Shown here: piece after piece, positions 44,190-54,865 of the stretch
How the letters are laid out: every line of letters begins with the position of its first letter
Numbering within the stretch: position 1 is the first letter of the stretch
Source: Pelomonas sp. Root1237
Lineage (GTDB): Bacteria; Pseudomonadota; Gammaproteobacteria; Burkholderiales; Burkholderiaceae_C
DNA: 64,000 bases
Direction: 5' to 3'
Assembly: GCF_001425055.1 (NCBI RefSeq)
Contig: NZ_LMDK01000001.1
Coordinates: 145,763 to 209,762, forward strand
Notes under the pieces: generated by a model
Told to the model about the DNA's origin: nothing
Seen by the model: the letters and a program-made list of their open reading frames with translations, nothing else
The model's database searches: none
Translations under genes and position numbers: made by a program

Positions 44190-46703
44190 TCAGAATTCGC
44201 CGCCGCTGAAGCGCGTGTCTGGCAGCTGCAGCAGGCTGCGCAGCTGCAGCCGTGTCGACGGCCAGACCGTCAGCGGCGGATTGACGGAGTCGAGGTGGGC
44301 CTCGCGCGCGGCGCCCAGGCCCTGGCGGTGGGCCAGCTCGACGAAGGCCTGGGTGGCATCGCGCGGCAGGGCCTGGGCGAACAGAAAGCCCTGGCCCAGG
44401 CTGCAGCCCAGCTCGGTCAGCACCTGGTGCTGCTCGGCAGTCTCGATGCCCTCGGCCACCGTGTGCAGGCCCAGGGCCTGGGCGAGGTCATGGATGGCCG
44501 CGACGATGGCGCGTGCCGTCGCGCCGGCCTGCGGGTGGTCGAGATCGGCGATGAAGGCGCGGTCGATCTTGAGCTGGTCCAGCGGCAGGCGGCGCAGATA
44601 GGCCAGCGACGAGAAGCCGGTGCCGAAGTCGTCCAGCGCAGTGCGCACACCCAGGGCGCGCAGCCGCGTCAGCAGGTCGATGGCGTGTTGGCTGTCCTTC
44701 AGCAGGGCCGATTCGGTCAGTTCGATCTCCAGGCGGTCGGCAGGCAGGCCGGTGCGCTCCAGCGCCTCCAGCACATGCAGCTCGATGGGGCTGCGCTCGA
44801 ACTGCAGGGCCGACACGTTGACGGCGACGCGCAGCTCGCCCGGCCAGCGCGCTGCGTCGCGGCAGGCGATGAGCAGGGCCCAGGCGCCGATGGTGATGAT
44901 GAGGCCGCTGTCTTCGGCCAACGGGATAAAGACGGCCGGTGGCACCAGGCCGCGCACGGGATGGCGCCAGCGCATCAGCGCCTCGAAGCCCCGCAGCTTG
45001 CCCGTGGCCAGCTCGATCTGTGGCTGGTAGTGCATCTCCAGTTGATCCGCGTCCAGCGCCAGCCGCAGGTCGGCCAGCAGGGCGAGGCGGTCCTGGGCGG
45101 CCTGCTGCAGGGCCGGCTCGTAGAGCACGAGGCGGTCGCGCCCGGCGGCCTTGGCGGCGAACAGGGCCAGGTCGGCAGCGCGCAGCAGCGGGTCGGCCGC
45201 CTGGGCATGGCGTGGCGCGCAGGCCGCGCCGATGCTGACGCGCACGTCGATCTCGTTGCCGTCGATGGAAACCGGCACGCGCAGGGCCGAGCGCAATTGC
45301 TTGCCCAGGCGCTGCATGGCTTCGGGGCTGAGCTCGCCGCGGAGCAGCACGGCGAATTCGTCGGCGCCCAGCCGCGCGACCAGGTCGCCGTTGCCGCGCC
45401 GCGCTGCCAGGCTGTCGTGCAGCCGCTCGCCCACGGCGGCCAGCAGGTGGTCGCCGGCGGCATGGCCCAGGCTGTCGTTGACCTGCTTGAAGCAGTCCAG
45501 GTCCAGCAGCAGCACGGTGCACGGCGAGATGGGCCCGCCGCCGCCGAGATAAAGGGCCAGGCGGCGGTGGAACTGGTGGCGGTTGGCCAGGCCGGTGACG
45601 GTGTCCTGGTCGGTCAGGCGCAGCAGCTCGCGTTCGCGCTCGCGCACCTCGCTGATATCGCTGCCCACGCCGCGCCAGCCGCCGTCGCCTTCCAGGCGCC
45701 GCCCGCTGAGCGTCCACCAGACATCCTCGCCGCCAACCCGCAGATGCAGGGCGTGATCGCTCAGCGGTTCGGTCGCCAGCAGCGCGTCGCCCAGTCGGTC
45801 CAGGCGCTGCTGGGCGTCGGCGTTGTTGGCGGGCAGCTGGTGGGCCAGTACGGCCAGCAGCGGCTCGCCGATCAGGTCCTGCGCCCGCTGGCCCAGGCTT
45901 TCGGCCATGCGCTGCGAGACATGGCGCAGCCGGCCGTCGCGGCCCAATTCCCACAGCCAGTCGCTGGCGTGATGTTCGAAGTCGCGCAGCAGCAGCGACA
46001 CCGTGAGCCGGTCACGTGCGGCCTCGTGCTGGGCGTGGCGGCCCAGCAGGAAGAGGCGGGCATTCAGCAGTGCCGCCATGCACAGCGCGATGGCGTACAA
46101 CGGCAGCAACGGCAGCAGCCCGTCCATCCAGGGAAGCGGCAGCAGCGCGATGCCCACGGCCAGCGTGCCGCAGGCGCCCAGCACCCAGCCGATGGCCACG
46201 GCGGGCAGCAGCGCGAACATCCAGGCTGCGGCGGCAATGGCGCCGGCCGCGGTGGCCACCAGCGGCGCGTGCAGGCCGGGCTCGGCCTGCTGGGCAACCT
46301 GCAGCAGCAGCACCGCGTCCAGCACGCCGCCGGCAAAAAGGTCCAGCGCCAGCAGCAGGCCGGCACGGATGCCGCGCGGCGGCGCGTCGGGTGGGCGGCG
46401 GTGGCGTTCATGCCGCCACAGCGCGAAGTTGAAGCCGTTGAGCGCCACCAGTGCCATCAGCGTGGGCGCGACGGGCAGCAGGTCGATGCGCCCTTTCAGT
46501 GCCACCAGCAGCAGCGCGATGGCGATGGCCGTGGCCACGACCGAGGCAGGCAACTGGCCGACGACGGCGCGCCACTGGTCGTCCCGCAGCTTGACCGCCT
46601 CTGCCGGATCGCCCGGCACCTCCCAGGCGGCGTGGATCAGCCGCTTGAACCCCGCCAGCGGCCACCGGGCAGGCAGTGCAAAAGGGGGCAGTGGCTCGGC
46701 CAT
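44190..46703 (-). CDS. Membrane PAS-GGDEF-EAL cyclic-di-GMP protein
   Basis: An 837-residue protein: six or so membrane helices within residues 50-220, a PAS-like segment at about 240-355, a GGDEF domain with the variant motif GADEF at 446-450, and an EAL domain with FEALMRW (EAL at 574-576) and ELTES, DDFGTGFSSL and KIDRAFI, all of which support phosphodiesterase activity. The Gly-to-Ala change in GGDEF may weaken cyclase activity. It likely lowers cyclic di-GMP in response to a ligand of the membrane or PAS part. Confidence 0.9.
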   Translation of the reverse strand: MAEPLPPFALPARWPLAGFKRLIHAAWEVPGDPAEAVKLRDDQWRAVVGQLPASVVATAIAIALLLVALKGRIDLLPVAPTLMALVALNGFNFALWRHERHRRPPDAPPRGIRAGLLLALDLFAGGVLDAVLLLQVAQQAEPGLHAPLVATAAGAIAAAAWMFALLPAVAIGWVLGACGTLAVGIALLPLPWMDGLLPLLPLYAIALCMAALLNARLFLLGRHAQHEAARDRLTVSLLLRDFEHHASDWLWELGRDGRLRHVSQRMAESLGQRAQDLIGEPLLAVLAHQLPANNADAQQRLDRLGDALLATEPLSDHALHLRVGGEDVWWTLSGRRLEGDGGWRGVGSDISEVRERERELLRLTDQDTVTGLANRHQFHRRLALYLGGGGPISPCTVLLLDLDCFKQVNDSLGHAAGDHLLAAVGERLHDSLAARRGNGDLVARLGADEFAVLLRGELSPEAMQRLGKQLRSALRVPVSIDGNEIDVRVSIGAACAPRHAQAADPLLRAADLALFAAKAAGRDRLVLYEPALQQAAQDRLALLADLRLALDADQLEMHYQPQIELATGKLRGFEALMRWRHPVRGLVPPAVFIPLAEDSGLIITIGAWALLIACRDAARWPGELRVAVNVSALQFERSPIELHVLEALERTGLPADRLEIELTESALLKDSQHAIDLLTRLRALGVRTALDDFGTGFSSLAYLRRLPLDQLKIDRAFIADLDHPQAGATARAIVAAIHDLAQALGLHTVAEGIETAEQHQVLTELGCSLGQGFLFAQALPRDATQAFVELAHRQGLGAAREAHLDSVNPPLTVWPSTRLQLRSLLQLPDTRFSGGEF

Positions 46704-47359: not shown

Positions 47360-47660
47360 GGGGCGATTATTCCGTCCGCGAAAGGGCGCTTTGTTTCCGG
47401 GCGGGTGCCTGGGCCCCGCGCGCAACGCCGCCGGGCCTGGATCCGATGACAGGGACATTCAGGGGAAGGTGCGGCATTCAGCGTGCCCATCAGCCGGGCA
47501 GACGGAACGCGAAGCGGCAAGGCTGCCACGGTCGGCGCAGGCAGGCGGCAATGTAAGCGCGGGCTCACAACGCTGAGCTCTGCGATGCCCATCCGGACCG
47601 GCATCGACCGTTGATCGGGTTTTGCTTCACATGCGGCCATTGAGGGCGAAGATGCGCCGC

Positions 47661-48323
47661 ATGAAGCGCCGTACCTTCGCATTCGCCGCACTGCTGCCGG
47701 CTCTGGCCTGGGCCGAAGAGACTGCTGAGTCCGCGTTCGGCGGCCATGGCATGGCCGTGTTCGGCGGCCGTGAGGGCCTGTATGCCTCGCACTTGCCGAT
47801 GTTCCACACGCCGCATGACAGCCAGGTGCTGCTGCGCTTTCACCTCGCCGATGCGGCGGCCGACAAGGCACTGCGCGAGACCTTGGCCCGCCAGCCCAGC
47901 TTGTGGACCTTCGACCCCGAGGCCTTTGACCTGCTGCGCTTCACACCAGGCCACGCCAAGCCGCTGCGCGAATTCAAGGCGCGCTTCTTCGCGGGCCACT
48001 TCGAGCGTGGCGGCAAGCCACAGTCGGCCGAGCAGCGCGTCGTCGTCGATGAGGTGATGCTGTTTCGGCGGCTGAGCCCCGTTCAACGCGAGGCATCGAC
48101 CGGGCGCTATCGGCTGATCGGCAAGGGCAGCGAGTGGTTCGCGGTCAAGACCATCGACCGCCGCCCGGACTTCGACCACATCGTGCGCCTGAAGGCACCC
48201 CAGGTCCGCGGCGAGGTCGATGTGCCGCTGCAGGGCGTCGCCAGGCCTGGCGCCACTGTCCAACGTGCCTTCAAGGCCAAGGGGCTGACCGAGATCTACT
48301 TCGAGACCGACGACCTGCGTTGA
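47661..48323 (+). CDS. Secreted hypothetical protein
   Basis: A 220-residue protein with a signal peptide (MKRRTFAFAALLPALAWA). The mature part shows SAFGGHGMAVFGGREGLYAS, HTPHDSQVLLRFHLA and a beta-rich C-terminal half. I do not recognise the family. Four in-frame ATGs are present; I use 47661 because it gives the best signal peptide. It lies 26 bp before the OsmC gene on the same strand. Confidence 0.7.
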   Translation: MKRRTFAFAALLPALAWAEETAESAFGGHGMAVFGGREGLYASHLPMFHTPHDSQVLLRFHLADAAADKALRETLARQPSLWTFDPEAFDLLRFTPGHAKPLREFKARFFAGHFERGGKPQSAEQRVVVDEVMLFRRLSPVQREASTGRYRLIGKGSEWFAVKTIDRRPDFDHIVRLKAPQVRGEVDVPLQGVARPGATVQRAFKAKGLTEIYFETDDLR

Positions 48324-48349
48324 GAATCGCTTCCAACCCAGGAGGCTTT

Positions 48350-48805
48350 ATGGACAACCCCAGCGTCACCCTGATCCAGCGTCAGGGCTACCAGTTCGAA
48401 CACCATTACGTGCCGGAGCTGCCGGTGCTGCTATCGGACGAGCCCGTGCCCTTCGGCACCGGGCTGGGGCCCGATCCGGTCGAACTGCTGGCCTCGGCCA
48501 TCGGCAATTGCCTCTCCGCGTCGCTGTGGTTTGCCTGCCAGAAGTACAAGGACGACCCCTCGCCGCTGCGCACCGAGGTCAAGGCGACCGTCGGCAGGAA
48601 CGAGCGCGGACGCAACCGCGTGCAGGGCCTGGCGGTGGACCTGCACCTGGGCAAGCCAGCCGACCAGCTCGGCCACATTCAGCGTGTGCTGGACACCTTC
48701 GAGGACTTCTGCACCGTCACGCAGAGCGTGGCGCCGGCCATTCCCGTGACGCTGCGCGTGCTGGACAGCACTGGTGCGGTTCTGAAGCCCGCCGCGGCCG
48801 TGTGA
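48350..48805 (+). CDS. OsmC-family peroxidase
   Basis: A 151-residue protein with the OsmC fold. The two redox Cys are visible, Cys54 in IGNCLSASLW and Cys121 in EDFCTVTQSV, as in OsmC/Ohr peroxidases that reduce organic hydroperoxides. GGAGG just upstream of ATG 48350. Cytosolic. It is followed by repeat copy C. Confidence 0.85.
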   Translation: MDNPSVTLIQRQGYQFEHHYVPELPVLLSDEPVPFGTGLGPDPVELLASAIGNCLSASLWFACQKYKDDPSPLRTEVKATVGRNERGRNRVQGLAVDLHLGKPADQLGHIQRVLDTFEDFCTVTQSVAPAIPVTLRVLDSTGAVLKPAAAV

Positions 48806-48941: not shown

Positions 48942-49718
48942 CTAAGCGGGCATTTCCAGGCCGAGTTCCTTCAGGATCGCCTCGCGCAGCGCATCCATCT
49001 CCGGGCTGATCAATCGCCGCGGGTGCGGCATGTCCAGCTCGAAGCGGGCCTGGATGCGCGTGGGCCGGGGCGACAGCACGAGGATGCGGTCGGCCATGTA
49101 GAGGGCCTCGTCGACGTCGTGGGTGATGAGCAGCACCGTGTGCTTTTCTTCGGCCAGGATGCGCAGCAGCTCGTTGCGCATGCGCAGGTTCATCAGCGCG
49201 TCCAGCGCCGAGAAGGGCTCGTCCAGATACAGGATCTCGGGCTTGACGATGAAGGCCCGCGCCAGCTCGACGCGCTTGAGCATGCCGCCCGACAGCTCGT
49301 GCGGGTAGGCGCCTTCGAAGCCCTTGAGCCCGACCATGGCGGCGTAGTGGTCGGCCAGCTTGACGCGCTCGGCATCGACGCCATGCTCCTGGCCGGTCAG
49401 GCCGAACATCAGGTTCTGCTGCACGGTCAGCCAGGGGAAGACCGAGCCATATTGCGAGATGACGATGCCCTGGGGGCTGGGGCCGGGATGGGGCTGGCCG
49501 TCGATCAGCAGCGAGCCGCCGTCGGTCTTTTCGAAGCCCGCGAGGATGTTCATCAACGTCGACTTGCCGCAGCCGGAGGGGCCGACGATGGCGACGAACT
49601 CGCCTTCGGCGACGTCGAAGTCCACGCCCTGGATGACGGGCAGCTGGCCGCCCTTGGCGGACTTGAAGCTCTTGGTCAAGCCGCTGACGGCGATCTTGGG
49701 CATCTTGTTATCTGACAT
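48942..49718 (-). CDS. Nitrate/taurine-type ABC transporter ATPase
   Basis: A 258-residue ATPase: Walker A GPSGCGKST, Q-loop in ISQYGSVFPWLTV, signature LSGGMLKRVELARAF, Walker B ILYLDEPFSALDAL and ITHDVDEALYMADR. These features match the SsuB/TauB/NrtD family. It is the last gene of the five-gene copper-linked operon and overlaps the permease gene by 11 bp. It energises import in the cytoplasm. Confidence 0.9.
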   Translation of the reverse strand: MSDNKMPKIAVSGLTKSFKSAKGGQLPVIQGVDFDVAEGEFVAIVGPSGCGKSTLMNILAGFEKTDGGSLLIDGQPHPGPSPQGIVISQYGSVFPWLTVQQNLMFGLTGQEHGVDAERVKLADHYAAMVGLKGFEGAYPHELSGGMLKRVELARAFIVKPEILYLDEPFSALDALMNLRMRNELLRILAEEKHTVLLITHDVDEALYMADRILVLSPRPTRIQARFELDMPHPRRLISPEMDALREAILKELGLEMPA

Positions 49719-50469
49719 AGCGCCACCGCACGGTCTTGAGTTTTTCGAGCAGGCGGGTCACGCCGTCCAGCAGCAGGCCGATGACGCCGATGAGGATCAT
49801 GCTGGCGATGACGAGGTCATAGCGGTTGCCGGCATTGCGCGAATCCATGATGAGATAGCCCAGGCCCGAGCGCAGCGCGATCATCTCGGCCGCCACGACG
49901 ACCAGCCACGCCACGCCGATGCCGATGCGCATGCCGATGATGATTTCCGGCAGCACGGCCGGGATGACGACGCGGCGGAACATCACCGCGCGCGACACGC
50001 CGAAGTTGGTGGCCGCGCGCAGGTAGCGCCGGTCGATGGTGTGCACGCCCGAGGTCGTCTGAACGATCAGCGGGAACACGGAGGAGATGAAGATCAGGAA
50101 GATGGGCGAGGTGTCGCCGACGCCGAACCACAGGATGGCCAGCGGGATCCAGGCGATCGGCGAGATCGGCCGCAGCATCTGGAAGATCGGGTTGAAGGTG
50201 CGGTAGGCGCCGGCCACCCAGCCCATCCACAGGCCCAGCGGGATGCCGATCAGCATGGCCAGGCCGAAGCCGATGCCCACGCGCATCAGCGACGCGGTGA
50301 TGTGCTCCCACAGCGTGCCGTCCTGGGCCAGCTCCAGCGTGCCGGTGACGACGGCCCAGGGTGTCGGGAAGATGGGGCTCTCGGTGTAGACGACGATGCC
50401 CCACCAGGCCGCGATGACCAGGGCAATGACCGCCAGCGGCGGCAGGATTCGATTCAGGCGCAGGTTCAC
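49708..50469 (-). CDS. ABC transporter permease, nitrate/taurine type
   Basis: A 253-residue inner-membrane protein with about six helices (LPPLAVIALVIAAWWGIVVY, IGFGLAMLIGIPLGLWMGWV) and the coupling-loop region ATNFGVSRAVMFRRVVIPAV. GTG 50469 is used, with AGGAGG well placed upstream; it overlaps the previous stop as GTGA. The longer open frame runs back through the cupredoxin-like gene and is spurious. Confidence 0.9.
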   Translation of the reverse strand: MNLRLNRILPPLAVIALVIAAWWGIVVYTESPIFPTPWAVVTGTLELAQDGTLWEHITASLMRVGIGFGLAMLIGIPLGLWMGWVAGAYRTFNPIFQMLRPISPIAWIPLAILWFGVGDTSPIFLIFISSVFPLIVQTTSGVHTIDRRYLRAATNFGVSRAVMFRRVVIPAVLPEIIIGMRIGIGVAWLVVVAAEMIALRSGLGYLIMDSRNAGNRYDLVIASMILIGVIGLLLDGVTRLLEKLKTVRWRYVR

Positions 50470-50900
50470 CGCCCCTCCTTCCAGTGGTTCTTCATGAGGC
50501 GTTGCCAGCGCCATTGCAATGCTGGCCAGCCGCGCGCTGGCGTTGGCGCGACGACGACGGCCATCTGGCCGCTGGCATGTGCGCTGCACGCGAAGCTATA
50601 GGTCGATGCGACCTCGAAGGGCAGGCGAAAACTCTGCCCCGGCATGATGAGCACGGGGCCGAACTGCTGCGGCACCTCGTCGCGGTTGCGCAGCAGCAGC
50701 ACGTCGTTCAGGCCCAGCGTCAGATCGATGCGGTCCGGGAGGATCTCGACCTTGTCACCGGCCATGCGGCGGGCATAGGTGCCTTGCGGGATCTCGAACA
50801 GCTCGTCGCGCGTGGGCAGTTCGATGGGCGCCAGCGCCGCCCAGGCCACCAGGGCCAGCGGCAACGTGACCGGCAGGAGCCAGACCCAACGCTTTCTCAC
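50466..50900 (-). CDS. Membrane-anchored cupredoxin-like protein
   Basis: A 144-residue protein with one N-terminal membrane helix (VWLLPVTLPLALVAWAALAP) and a beta-rich body. Cys105-x2-His108-x4-Met113 (ACSAHASGQM) has the exact spacing of a type 1 copper site as in plastocyanin. The N-terminal His ligand is not seen: the position of NRDEVPQQFGPV carries Gln. It would sit in the periplasm. It is sandwiched, with 4 bp overlaps, between SCO and the permease, so it is likely part of the importer's work. Confidence 0.75.
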   Translation of the reverse strand: MRKRWVWLLPVTLPLALVAWAALAPIELPTRDELFEIPQGTYARRMAGDKVEILPDRIDLTLGLNDVLLLRNRDEVPQQFGPVLIMPGQSFRLPFEVASTYSFACSAHASGQMAVVVAPTPARGWPALQWRWQRLMKNHWKEGR

Positions 50901-51469
50901 TTCGAAGCCAAGAGCAGCTTGAGGTCGTGCACGAAGTCCTTGGCCTCGTGGCCGTAGGGCATCATGGCCCGCAGCGTGCCGGCGCGGTCGATCAGCCAGA
51001 CCGACGTGGAGTGGTTCATGCCGTAGGCGTTGCCTTGCTTGGGCGCGATCTTCTCGGCGACGACGCCATAGCGCTTGCGCATCGCGGCCAGCTTGTCCGG
51101 TGCCTCGGTGCCGCCGATGAAGGTCGGGTCAAACGCGGTCAGGTATTGGCGGATGCGCGGGATGTCATCGCGCTCGGGGTCCACCGTTACGTAGACGACC
51201 TGCACGTCCGCCGCGTCGGTGCCCAGCTGCTTGCGCGCCTGGGCGAGCGTGGCCAGCGTCGTCGGGCAGACCTCGGGGCAGTGGGTGAAGCCGAACACCA
51301 ACAGCACCAGCCTGCCCTTGAAGCGGGCGAGATTGAGGGCGGCACCGTCGCTGCCCTGGAGAGCGAATTCGGGCGCTGCCTGGGCGGGCTCGAAGACGCC
51401 GGCCTTCAGCGTCGGCGCAGCCTGCGCCGTCAAAGGCAGCGCGGCCCACAACAGGGCGCGGCGTTTCAT
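50897..51469 (-). CDS. SCO1/SenC-family copper chaperone
   Basis: A 190-residue thioredoxin-fold protein with a signal peptide (to about AQA at 17). Copper-binding CPEVC gives Cys64 and Cys68, and His153 lies in MNHSTSVWLI; all three SCO ligands are present. SCO proteins deliver copper to the CuA centre of terminal oxidases or act in periplasmic thiol chemistry. Here no oxidase gene is near; the gene overlaps the substrate-binding and cupredoxin-like genes by 4 bp each. Confidence 0.88.
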   Translation of the reverse strand: MKRRALLWAALPLTAQAAPTLKAGVFEPAQAAPEFALQGSDGAALNLARFKGRLVLLVFGFTHCPEVCPTTLATLAQARKQLGTDAADVQVVYVTVDPERDDIPRIRQYLTAFDPTFIGGTEAPDKLAAMRKRYGVVAEKIAPKQGNAYGMNHSTSVWLIDRAGTLRAMMPYGHEAKDFVHDLKLLLASK

Positions 51470-52506
51470 ATCGGGATGGGCGCGGCCTTGGCCGCCTTGA
51501 CGAAACTGTCGTCCACGTATTTCTCGTAGGCCACCGGGGCCTTGAGCGTGCCGGCCTCGATGGACAGCTGCATCAGGTCGTCGAACTCGGCGCGGATCAT
51601 GCGCAGGTCGCCATAGGTGACGCGGTCCGTCGGGTTCTCCATCACGAAGCGCAGGATGTTGGGGTCCTGGTTGAAGAACTTGCGGCCGGCGGCGATCTGG
51701 ATGGCCTTCTCGCGGTTGGCGGCCTGCAGGTCCAGCCAGTTGCCGGCACCCTGCACGTGGTTCACCAGGTCCTGCACCAGCGGCCGGTTCTCCTTGATGA
51801 GTTCCTCGCGCACCGTCAGCACGCAGCAGATGTAGTTGCGCCACTCGTCGCGCGTCATGCGCAACGGTCGCGCATAGCCGGCGCGCTGGGCCGAGGCGCC
51901 GAAGGGCTCGCCGGTGCAATAGGCGTCCACGGCCTTGGCAAAGAGGGCGGCCGGCATGTCGGGCGGCGGCATCTCGACGATCTGGATGTCCTTGGGCGTC
52001 ATGCCCTCCTGGGCCAGCATCTTGCGCAGGAACAGAAAGTCCACCGCGAAGCGGCTGGGGATGGCGATGCGCTTGCCCGTCAGGTCCTTGAACTTCTTGT
52101 AGGGCGAGTCGGTGCGCACCATGATGACGGCGCCCGAGCGATGGCCCAGCGAGACGATCTTGACCGGGATCTTCTTGTCCGCCAGGTCCATGACCAGCGG
52201 CGCAAGCATGTAGGCGGCCTGGATGCCGCCGGTCATCAGCGACTCCTTGATCTCGGGCCAGCCGTTGTACTTGCTGTACTCGAACTGGAAGGCCGAGCTG
52301 CCGGAGGCCTTGTTGGACGCCAGGCGTGCCGAGCAGGCCACCGGCAGCGTCAAGTTGCAGGTGACCGGCAGGCCGCCGACGATCAGCGGGCCGGAAGCGG
52401 CCGCCGCGGGCAGGCTCAGGACCGGCAGCGCCGACGCCAGCGCGCCGCGCAGCAATTGCCGGCGATCAAGGCCGGCGGGTGGGGATTCAGGCAGTTCGTG
52501 AGTCAT
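51466..52506 (-). CDS. ABC transporter substrate-binding protein, NMT1/SsuA type
   Basis: A 346-residue protein with a twin-arginine-type signal (LDRRQLLRGALASALPVLSL). The body has the type 2 periplasmic-binding fold: TGGIQAAYMLAPLVMDLADK, FKDLTGKRIAIPSRFAVDF and EMPPPDMPAALFAKAVDAYC with TGEPF. It belongs to the nitrate/sulfonate/taurine group, but unusually holds several Cys (Cys50 and Cys58 in VTCNLTLPVACSA, and an ICCV pair). The Tat signal suggests folding with a cofactor or metal before export. It is the first gene of the operon. Confidence 0.85.
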   Translation of the reverse strand: MTHELPESPPAGLDRRQLLRGALASALPVLSLPAAAASGPLIVGGLPVTCNLTLPVACSARLASNKASGSSAFQFEYSKYNGWPEIKESLMTGGIQAAYMLAPLVMDLADKKIPVKIVSLGHRSGAVIMVRTDSPYKKFKDLTGKRIAIPSRFAVDFLFLRKMLAQEGMTPKDIQIVEMPPPDMPAALFAKAVDAYCTGEPFGASAQRAGYARPLRMTRDEWRNYICCVLTVREELIKENRPLVQDLVNHVQGAGNWLDLQAANREKAIQIAAGRKFFNQDPNILRFVMENPTDRVTYGDLRMIRAEFDDLMQLSIEAGTLKAPVAYEKYVDDSFVKAAKAAPIPI

Positions 52507-52649: not shown

Positions 52650-53921
52650 TTACGGGTACAGGCCGCGCTCCTCGCGCGCCTGCAGCACCCGCGTGCAGGC
52701 CACCGTGAAGGCGGCCGTGCGCAGCGTGACCTTGTGCAGCTCACTGGTTTCCCAGATGTGCTTGAACGCGCCGATCATGATCTTGTCCAGGCGGACATTG
52801 ATCTCGTCCTCGGTCCAGAAGAAGGACGAGAAGTCCTGCACCCATTCGAAGTAGGACACCGTCACGCCACCGGCGTTGGCGATCACGTCGGGCACGACGA
52901 CGATGCCACGGTCGGCCAACACGGCCTCGCCGTCCGGCGTGGTCGGGCCGTTGGCGCCTTCCAGCACCAGGCGGGTGCGGATGCGCTGGGCGCGCTCTGC
53001 GGTGATCTGGCCTTCCAGCGCGGCCGGGATCAGCACGTCGCTCTGCACGTCCCAGAAGTTCTCGTCGGCGATCTTGTCGGCACCGGCAAAGCCCGCCACA
53101 CCCTTGTAGGCGGCCACGTGATCGAGCAGGCTTTGCATGTCGAAGCCGTTCTCGTTCAGGATGGTGCCGGTGTGGTCCTGCACGCAGACGACCTTGGCGC
53201 CGTTGGAGGCAAACAGCTTGGCGGCAATGGAACCGACGTTGCCGAAGCCCTGCACGGCGATGCGGGCGCCTTCCAGCGGCTGGCCCAGGCGACGCATCGC
53301 TTCGCGGCCAACGACGAACACACCGCGGCCGGTGGCGGCCACGCGGCCCAGAGAGCCGCCCAGCTCGATGGGCTTGCCGGTGACGACGCCGGTCGCCGTG
53401 GCGCCGGTGTTCATCGAGTAGGTGTCCATCATCCAGGCCATGATCTGGCCGTTGGTGTTGACGTCTGGCGCCGGGATGTCCTGCTGCGGGCCGATGATGA
53501 TGCCGATCTCGCTGGTGTAGCGGCGCGTCATCTTCTCCAGCTCCTTGAGGCTCAGCAGCTTGGGGTCGACGCGGATGCCGCCCTTGGCGCCGCCATAGGG
53601 CAGGTTCACCGCGGCGTTCTTGATCGTCATCCACGCCGACAGGGCCATCACTTCTTCAAGCGTCACGTCGGGGTGGTAGCGCACGCCGCCCTTGCCCGGG
53701 CCGCGCGTGAGGCTGTGCTGCACACGGTAGCCCTCGAAGTGGGCGATGCTGCCGTTGTCCATCTCGATGGGGATGTCGACGATCAGCGCGCGCTTGGGGC
53801 GGCGCAGCGTCTCGACCCAGCGGGCCAGGCCGCCGAGATAGGGCTCGACCGCATCAATCTGCGACAGATAGGTTCCCCACGGGCTGTTTCGCGTCGGCGA
53901 AACAAAGGACAAATTGGGCAT
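52650..53921 (-). CDS. gdhA: Glutamate dehydrogenase (Glu/Leu/Phe/Val family)
   Basis: A 423-residue enzyme. The substrate domain has [20 protein letters not shown] and the catalytic Lys region [16 protein letters not shown], followed by [20 protein letters not shown]. The Rossmann domain has [11 protein letters not shown]-type VQGFGNVGS and CVQDHTG. This is the NAD(P)-dependent oxidative deamination of glutamate or its reverse. ATG 53921 has GGAG at suitable spacing. The preference for NAD or NADP cannot be read safely. Confidence 0.9.
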
Positions 53922-54037
53922 GAAACGCTCCGTAACTTTGAGTGGGGCGAACGGTAGCGCGAAGGTCCGCTCCCTCGGCAGCGCTTGTCTAGCCAAGTCC
54001 GTATGCGCCCATGCACGCAATGCATACCGGGCCGAAC

Positions 54038-54865
54038 CTAGCGTCGGCGACGTGGCATTCCACATAATCCCAAGATCAGAAGCAGGGCGGTCGGAGGCTC
54101 GGGCACGGCGGTGGTCATCCAGCCCAGCATCTGCATGTCGGCCGGGTCGCCGGCCAGCGTCGCATCCAGCCAGGAGCGGTAGCTGGACAGCTGGACATAG
54201 GCCGAACGAGGGTGGATGTCGTGGCCATTGGCGTCCTGGTCGGCGACATAGCCCGAAGCAATACCCCACAGCGAGGCACCGCTCGCCAGGCTGCTGACCT
54301 GGCCCAGGAAAAGCCCGCCGCCACTGTCTCCGCCTTGCACATAGGGCTGGGTGTAGCCGTCGGTGTAGGCGATCAGCCAATGGACCGGCACCGCTGCGAG
54401 CGGCCCGGCGCCGTCCGGGTCTACCGTCGGCCAATACTCTCGAACCTGGCTGAAGCCATAGCCGCGTGGCAGCTGGTTGTGCCCGGTCGTCAGCGTCGCG
54501 TCGATGGCGTAGCTGGCGTTGGCGGACAGGGTGTCGGTAACCAGGCTCAGCGACGGTGCCGCGATCGGTGTCTCCAGCCGCAGCAATGCGATATCGTCCA
54601 TCGGAAAGCCGCCTGACGCCGCGTCATAGCGCGCCGCGACGGTGGCGCTGCCGAAGCCGTTGCTGAAGGTGTCGCCGACCTCATAGCCCAGATGCCGGGC
54701 CGTGATGACCCAGTTGGGCAGCACCTGCACGCCGCTGGCCACCTGGCCGAACTCGGTCGTCGCGATGCCGCCGACAAGGGCCATGGCCGGGGCGGCCGCC
54801 GTCACGCCTGCGACAGCCACGGCGACAAGGCGGCTGACCGCCGCGGATCGGGTCATGTGAATCAT
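54038..54865 (-). CDS. PEP-CTERM-anchored trypsin-like serine protease
   Basis: A 275-residue exported protein: signal peptide to about AMA at 29. The trypsin fold has His58 in ITARHLGY, Asp91 in MDDIALLRL and Ser181 in GGDSGGGLF, so the triad is complete. The C-terminal sorting signal [17 protein letters not shown] ends in RRRR. Unlike most S1 proteases it lacks the canonical AAHC. AGGAG upstream supports ATG 54865. Predicted to be sorted by exosortase to the cell surface. Confidence 0.85.

Follow-up and report, generated by a model that had tools for sequence, protein, structure and literature searches.

A conserved NMT1-type ABC importer operon with SCO and cupredoxin-like genes in Pelomonas sp. 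Root1237 and its putative role in copper import

Introduction

Why would a bacterial importer of the nitrate/taurine (NitT/TauT) type be encoded together with two proteins that carry copper-type sites? This question is raised by a five-gene operon of Pelomonas sp. Root1237, found in a 64,000-nucleotide stretch of contig NZ_LMDK01000001.1 (positions 145,763 to 209,762 of the forward strand; hereafter the window), which belongs to a 6.4-Mb genome. The operon encodes the substrate-binding protein (SBP), permease (PERM) and ATPase (ATP) of an ATP-binding cassette (ABC) importer, interleaved with a SCO protein (SCO) and a cupredoxin-like protein (CUP). The five genes are a real, strictly linked unit, and the SBP carries cysteines at two positions where relatives encoded apart from SCO and CUP genes have Asp and His. 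These features point to copper as the ligand that may be imported.

The entry of copper into the bacterial cytoplasm is poorly known. In the portions available, a 2020 review presents CcoA, a protein of the major facilitator superfamily (MFS), as the prototype inner-membrane copper importer, names ABC transporters among the exporters, and states that further copper importers exist and are uncharacterised (PMC7558416), while a survey published in 2019 on beta-proteobacteria lists MFS importers together with TonB-dependent receptors (PMC6769254). The same portions of these two texts name no binding-protein-dependent ABC copper importer. A search of the literature, conducted on titles and abstract openings with most subscription journals outside its reach, returned no account of an operon of this kind.

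Results

Gene content of the operon

The five genes are all encoded on the minus strand in the order SBP-SCO-CUP-PERM-ATP, and the overlaps calculated from their coordinates are 4, 4, 4 and 11 bp. This confirmed the gene number, positions and overlaps given in an earlier reading of the window that was made from the letters alone (the sequence-only reading). The features are as follows:

51466-52506, minus strand: SBP, an NMT1-type periplasmic binding protein of 346 amino acids (aa); Pfam NMT1_2 at 1e-31; twin-arginine signal.
Within 51466-52506, minus strand: candidate ligands C50, C58, H122, D156, C227 and C228 of the SBP.
50897-51469, minus strand: SCO, a SCO1/SenC-type copper protein of 190 aa with C64, C68, H153 and an invariant H181; Pfam SCO1-SenC at 1.3e-38.
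50466-50900, minus strand: CUP, an N-terminally anchored cupredoxin-like protein of 144 aa with C105, H108, M113 and Gln78; residue conservation and a weak match to PF00127.
49708-50469, minus strand: PERM, an ABC importer permease of 253 aa; Pfam BPD_transp_1 at 1.6e-20.
48942-49718, minus strand: ATP, an ABC importer ATPase of 258 aa; Pfam ABC_tran at 3.3e-29.

The start of the permease was taken as the GTG at 50469; the mechanically called open reading frame (ORF) extends to 50589. The NMT1 (NitT/TauT-type) importer set is complete in this one operon, with SBP, permease and ATPase all above the Pfam gathering scores. For the three importer proteins, all of the scores shown were under the curated cut-offs for nitrate, taurine, sulfonate and Sao families (for ATP, these were the best 25 of 187 families). 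At a threshold of 0.001, BPD_transp_1 was the sole Pfam match of the permease, with no FTR1-type family, and CUP gave no match in either Pfam or NCBIfam.

Conservation and spread of the five-gene unit

A genome-collection scan (84,980 species according to its description) with the SBP as the query returned 43 loci, seven of which stem from congeners. The complete series SBP-SCO-CUP-PERM-ATP was present in order in 37 of them, and the remaining six (L030, L032, L034, L039, L040 and L049) stop at a contig edge and keep the gene order up to that edge. In L032, an apparent ATP match of 33% located far upstream was excluded from the operon. The five genes therefore occur together in every locus where the contig permits all five to be read (37/37), and three loci obtained outside the scan (L018, L100 and L101) hold all five as well. 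Because the same order recurs in 37 of the 43 loci and the other six are cut by the contig, the arrangement is more than chance. Importer genes standing apart from SCO and cupredoxin genes, which the sequence-only reading had named as the observation that would speak against it, were not encountered among the loci found with the SBP.

Named hosts include Roseateles/Pelomonas, Massilia, Rhizobacter, Steroidobacter and Cellvibrio, and the closest named locus is that of Pelomonas sp. Root1217, whose SBP is 97% identical. Among 20 congeners, CUP and the SBP (E up to 1e-80) were present in exactly the same eight genomes. Across 37 sequences, the five proteins have pairwise distances that correlate with one another at 0.77 to 0.85, a result that common descent of the hosts could also produce. 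When CUP was used as the query, matches were obtained in 10 of 60 relatives, nine of them strong and one weak (G058, 9.5e-4). Four of 398 genomes in a phylum sample gave a match, namely the organism's own genome, a degenerate paralog (G350) and short weak matches (G409 and G093). The six matches among 300 genomes of an order sample consisted of the own genome, the true members G698 and G725, the paralog G350, and the plastocyanin-like G640 and G696. No match to CUP was found in plasmids.

Copper-type residues of SCO and CUP

SCO proteins and the C-x2-H-x4-M loop of cupredoxins are copper-type sites. In SCO, the residues C64, C68 and H153, which had been described as intact, were kept together with H181 in all 44 sequences, and the CxxxC motif with a distal His that marks SCO1/SenC proteins is thus found throughout the family. 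CUP had been described as a membrane-anchored protein with a C-x2-H-x4-M motif, and both parts of that description stood: a strong hydrophobic N-terminal stretch is present in 44/44, C105 and H108 in 44/44, and M113 in 41/44. The description is refined by the finding that the first His of the site is replaced by Gln78.

At a lax threshold, 28 of 34 CUP homologues matched PF00127 (Copper-bind) with a best E of 0.0018, and the CUP of the window is under the gathering cut-off of that family (16.9 vs 21.2 bits). A CUP profile matched amicyanin over the ligand loop with a best E of 0.015. Two plastocyanin-like proteins (L094 and L095) carry MPGQSF and C-x2-H-x4-M as CUP does, plus a His before the loop.

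Paralogs of CUP that lie outside any importer operon were seen in order-mates (L064, L096 and L097), and all three have lost the His and the Met of the loop; the Cys is retained in L064 and L096, and position 78 of L064 is a His. The full copper loop therefore goes with the operon. The Cys-His-Met site of CUP, with its Gln, may bind Cu(I). In both L091 and L097, a divergent gene next to the CUP-like gene encodes a large protein resembling a sensor, which we read as CHASE-type.

Candidate ligands of the binding protein

The SBP carries five conserved cysteines. C50, H122, C227 and C228 were found in 45/45 sequences, C58 in 44/45 and C197 in 43/45. Among solved structures, the best match to the SBP profile was 3un6 (5.9e-38, profile positions 30-339); the next was at 1.3e-10, and NrtA/CmpA/SsuA-type structures matched at 1.3e-10 or weaker. 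The 3un6 protein is an NMT1-type binding protein of Staphylococcus aureus. It resembles the SBP over the whole length and has H122, E200-P201-F202-G203 and C227-C228 in common with it. It differs at positions 50, 58 and 156, which are His, Lys and His in 3un6 and Cys, Cys and Asp in the SBP; His156 of 3UN6-like proteins is thus replaced by Asp156 in the operon family. In the available part of PMC6344411, 3UN6 is termed metal-binding, and homologous NitT/TauT-type importers beside clade B nickel carbon monoxide dehydrogenase (Ni-CODH) are hypothesised to import metal ions such as nickel. The premise, implied in the sequence-only reading, that metals play no part in NMT1-type import was therefore too strong.

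Relatives of the SBP were taken from plasmids and other Pseudomonadota. In a single alignment, all 11 relatives have D50, H58, H122, H156, H225 and C227-C228, whereas all ten rows of the operon family have C50, C58, H122, D156, Y225 and C227-C228; two of these ten have Ala at position 197 in place of Cys. No SCO or CUP match was found in the loci of 12 relatives (6 to 14 kb) at E up to 0.1. The change of residues thus coincides with the copper proteins, and this is the strongest sequence argument for copper as the ligand of the SBP, drawn from 11 relatives and one family rather than tree-wide.

The twin-arginine signal and extra cysteines that had been ascribed to the SBP are both present, and only some of them distinguish it. 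The cysteines are of two kinds: C50 and C58 are specific to the family, while C227-C228 is common to a wider branch and, like the signal, is shared with relatives lacking SCO and CUP. A simple pattern for the signal was positive in 35 of 44 operon SBPs, and because several relatives carry one too, twin-arginine export is not special to the operon family.

Further NMT1-type importers whose binding protein has a Cys-Cys pair were seen in L067-L070, L086 and L087. Their neighbours vary and include acyl-CoA dehydrogenase-like, OsmC, carboxymuconolactone decarboxylase and sulfurtransferase genes. In L083, L084 and L085, SBP relatives are tightly set with membrane sensor-like and QueF-like proteins (by our own reading of the sequences), and no permease or ATPase gene was seen in those stretches.

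Surroundings of the operon

The genes around the operon in the window are as follows:

52650-54434, minus strand: glutamate dehydrogenase gene, lying immediately upstream of the operon.
48317-48805, plus strand: OsmC-like gene, which adjoins the operon in Roseateles-type loci only.
47622-48323, plus strand: protein of about 233 aa with a signal-like N-terminus and the His-rich motif SHLPMFHTPHD, without a Pfam or NCBIfam match; it also adjoins the operon in some Roseateles-type loci.
44190-46703, minus strand: PAS-GGDEF-EAL signalling protein.

The statement that no oxidase, nitrous oxide reductase (NosZ) or efflux gene is near held for the part of the window's ORFs that was scanned with Pfam, 18 products located between 32.5 and 63.7 kb. 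When the flanking ORFs of the 44 loci were clustered, no gene family occurred in more than seven loci; these ORFs were chosen mechanically, and some genes will have been missed. The larger families sit mostly inside Roseateles-type or Massilia loci, and no catabolic, TonB-receptor or metallophore family recurs next to the operon. Flanking genes were consequently rejected as a clue to function. The importers of relatives with D50 and H58 (L069 and L086) have OsmC neighbours as well. These OsmC genes show weak similarity to the OsmC neighbour of the operon (best E 0.001), which is probably a coincidental neighbour rather than part of the system.

Discussion

With its gene content, its strict linkage and its conserved candidate ligands, the operon represents a real and conserved variant within a known class of transporters, and its putative copper function is well-founded. 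The copper link made by the sequence-only reading is borne out by the five genes remaining together and by the family-specific C50 and C58; copper import itself we infer. We consider the chances about even that the SBP is loaded with Cu(I) by SCO and CUP and that the copper then enters through the ABC transporter. According to this model, SCO and the membrane-anchored CUP would bind copper in the periplasm, reduce it or maintain it as Cu(I), and pass it on to the exported SBP. The SBP would hold the copper in a Cys/His-lined cleft, where its relatives have Asp and His, and the permease and ATPase would then move it, as an ion or a small complex, into the cytoplasm. The inward direction is suggested by the importer families to which these proteins belong; copper as the ligand and the loading steps are proposals as well.

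A number of observations weigh against copper import. M113 of the CUP loop is Leu in three of 44 sequences, and the first His of cupredoxins is absent from CUP, with Gln78 at that position in 34/34. The C227-C228 pair and H122 of the SBP are common to relatives, some of which adjoin acyl-CoA dehydrogenase and OsmC genes, and are therefore not copper-specific. C50, C58 and H122 would line the SBP cleft as judged from the alignment. The PDB title of 3UN6 reportedly names zinc as its metal. Conserved cysteines that might form a metal path were sought in the permease and none was found. No regulatory box was shared when ten hand-written motifs were searched in 45 upstream stretches of 260 bp; the commonest, ACCTTCC, occurred in 7/45 and in Massilia falls within apparent upstream coding sequence. 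CueR-like palindromes, searched with a wider pattern, were not commoner upstream than expected (4 vs a shuffled mean of 2.84). Finally, NosZ, NirK and cbb3 oxidase were each considered as the client of the system, and none tracks the operon in the genomes compared.

The main rival, which we regard as unlikely, is uptake of an organic or sulfur-containing ligand by the importer, with SCO acting as a thiol-disulfide reductase and CUP as an electron carrier that together keep the SBP cysteines reduced or alter the ligand. SCO proteins can be thiol oxidoreductases, and the five conserved cysteines of the SBP would suit such a role. Several of the relatives with D50 and H58 also adjoin acyl-CoA dehydrogenase, OsmC or sulfurtransferase genes, neighbours that hint at organic or sulfur substrates. 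However, these relatives keep C227-C228 although no SCO or CUP gene was found nearby, and the operon has no recurring catabolic neighbour.

It is rather improbable that another metal or metal complex is imported (nickel, zinc or a copper-binding metallophore) with the role of the copper proteins limited to sensing, oxidising or stripping the metal. Cys/His/Asp sets suit several metals, and nickel import has been hypothesised for relatives in the part of PMC6344411 available. The absence of a recurring TonB-receptor or metallophore family beside the operon argues against this, as does the copper-type nature of SCO and of the C-x2-H-x4-M loop.

SCO proteins usually serve the assembly of the CuA site of oxidases, and the ABC part could, without importing copper, support its delivery by SCO and CUP to an oxidase or reductase, in the way that NosDFY supports NosZ. 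This we judge improbable, since the ABC genes are importer-type and include a binding protein, and since the candidate clients do not follow the operon. NosZ was present in 5 of 24 operon-bearing genomes, the same five by the propeller models PF18764 and PF18793, and neither model found it in the organism's own genome. NirK and cbb3 were compared in 22 operon-bearing and 12 operon-free genomes, a set that drops G469-G472 from the NosZ set and adds G698, G725 and the 12 operon-free congeners. NirK was above the cut-off in 6/22 operon-bearing genomes (the own genome among the six) vs 2/12 operon-free ones. The cbb3 subunit CcoN was above the cut-off in 32/34 (21/22 operon-bearing and 11/12 operon-free), the exceptions being the operon-bearing G725 and the operon-free G011, which is fragmented and has split matches. 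Because G725 bears the operon and has no CcoN above the cut-off, the operon is unlikely to supply cbb3 oxidase alone. This client comparison covers NosZ, NirK and cbb3.

A cupredoxin-assisted iron importer like FtrABCD is very improbable: FtrB is a cupredoxin within an importer operon, but in the part of PMC11966278 available it uses D118 and H121 and not a Cys-His-Met loop, and the permease described here matches BPD_transp_1 and not an FTR1-type family.

Several known systems are close to the operon. FtrABCD likewise pairs a cupredoxin with an importer, and differs in permease family and copper ligands (PMC11966278, as available). The importers linked to clade B Ni-CODH, as described in the available part of PMC6344411, are alike in being three-part, in having a 3UN6-homologous binding protein and in their proposed metal import; they are for nickel, occur in anaerobes, and are described there with no mention of SCO or cupredoxin proteins. 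CcoA/CalT importers have a task like the one proposed here, copper transport across the inner membrane, but are MFS and not ABC proteins (PMC7558416, as available).

The NrtA/CmpA/SsuA/TauA importers share the superfamily and gene types of the operon, but the aligned stretches of NrtA and CmpA lack the Cys-Cys pair and the operon proteins miss the listed curated cut-offs. SCO has the CxxxC motif and distal His of SCO1/SenC chaperones and differs from them in its location in an importer operon and its invariant His181. CUP shares the C-x2-H-x4-M loop with plastocyanin/amicyanin-type cupredoxins, and MPGQSF with L094 and L095, but has Gln for the first His and falls below the Pfam cut-off. The ABC-type transporter YbtPQ reportedly takes in copper-yersiniabactin; it is said to have the exporter fold and no periplasmic binding protein, SCO or cupredoxin partner.

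Compared with these systems, the operon may, somewhat tentatively, be proposed as the first binding-protein-dependent ABC copper importer, in which a NitT/TauT-type pocket has switched from Asp/His to Cys and is served by its own SCO and cupredoxin-like loaders. If copper import is true, the operon would represent a new class of importer, with its loading partners visible, in cultivable bacteria, and some genes annotated as nitrate or taurine transporters would be metal importers.

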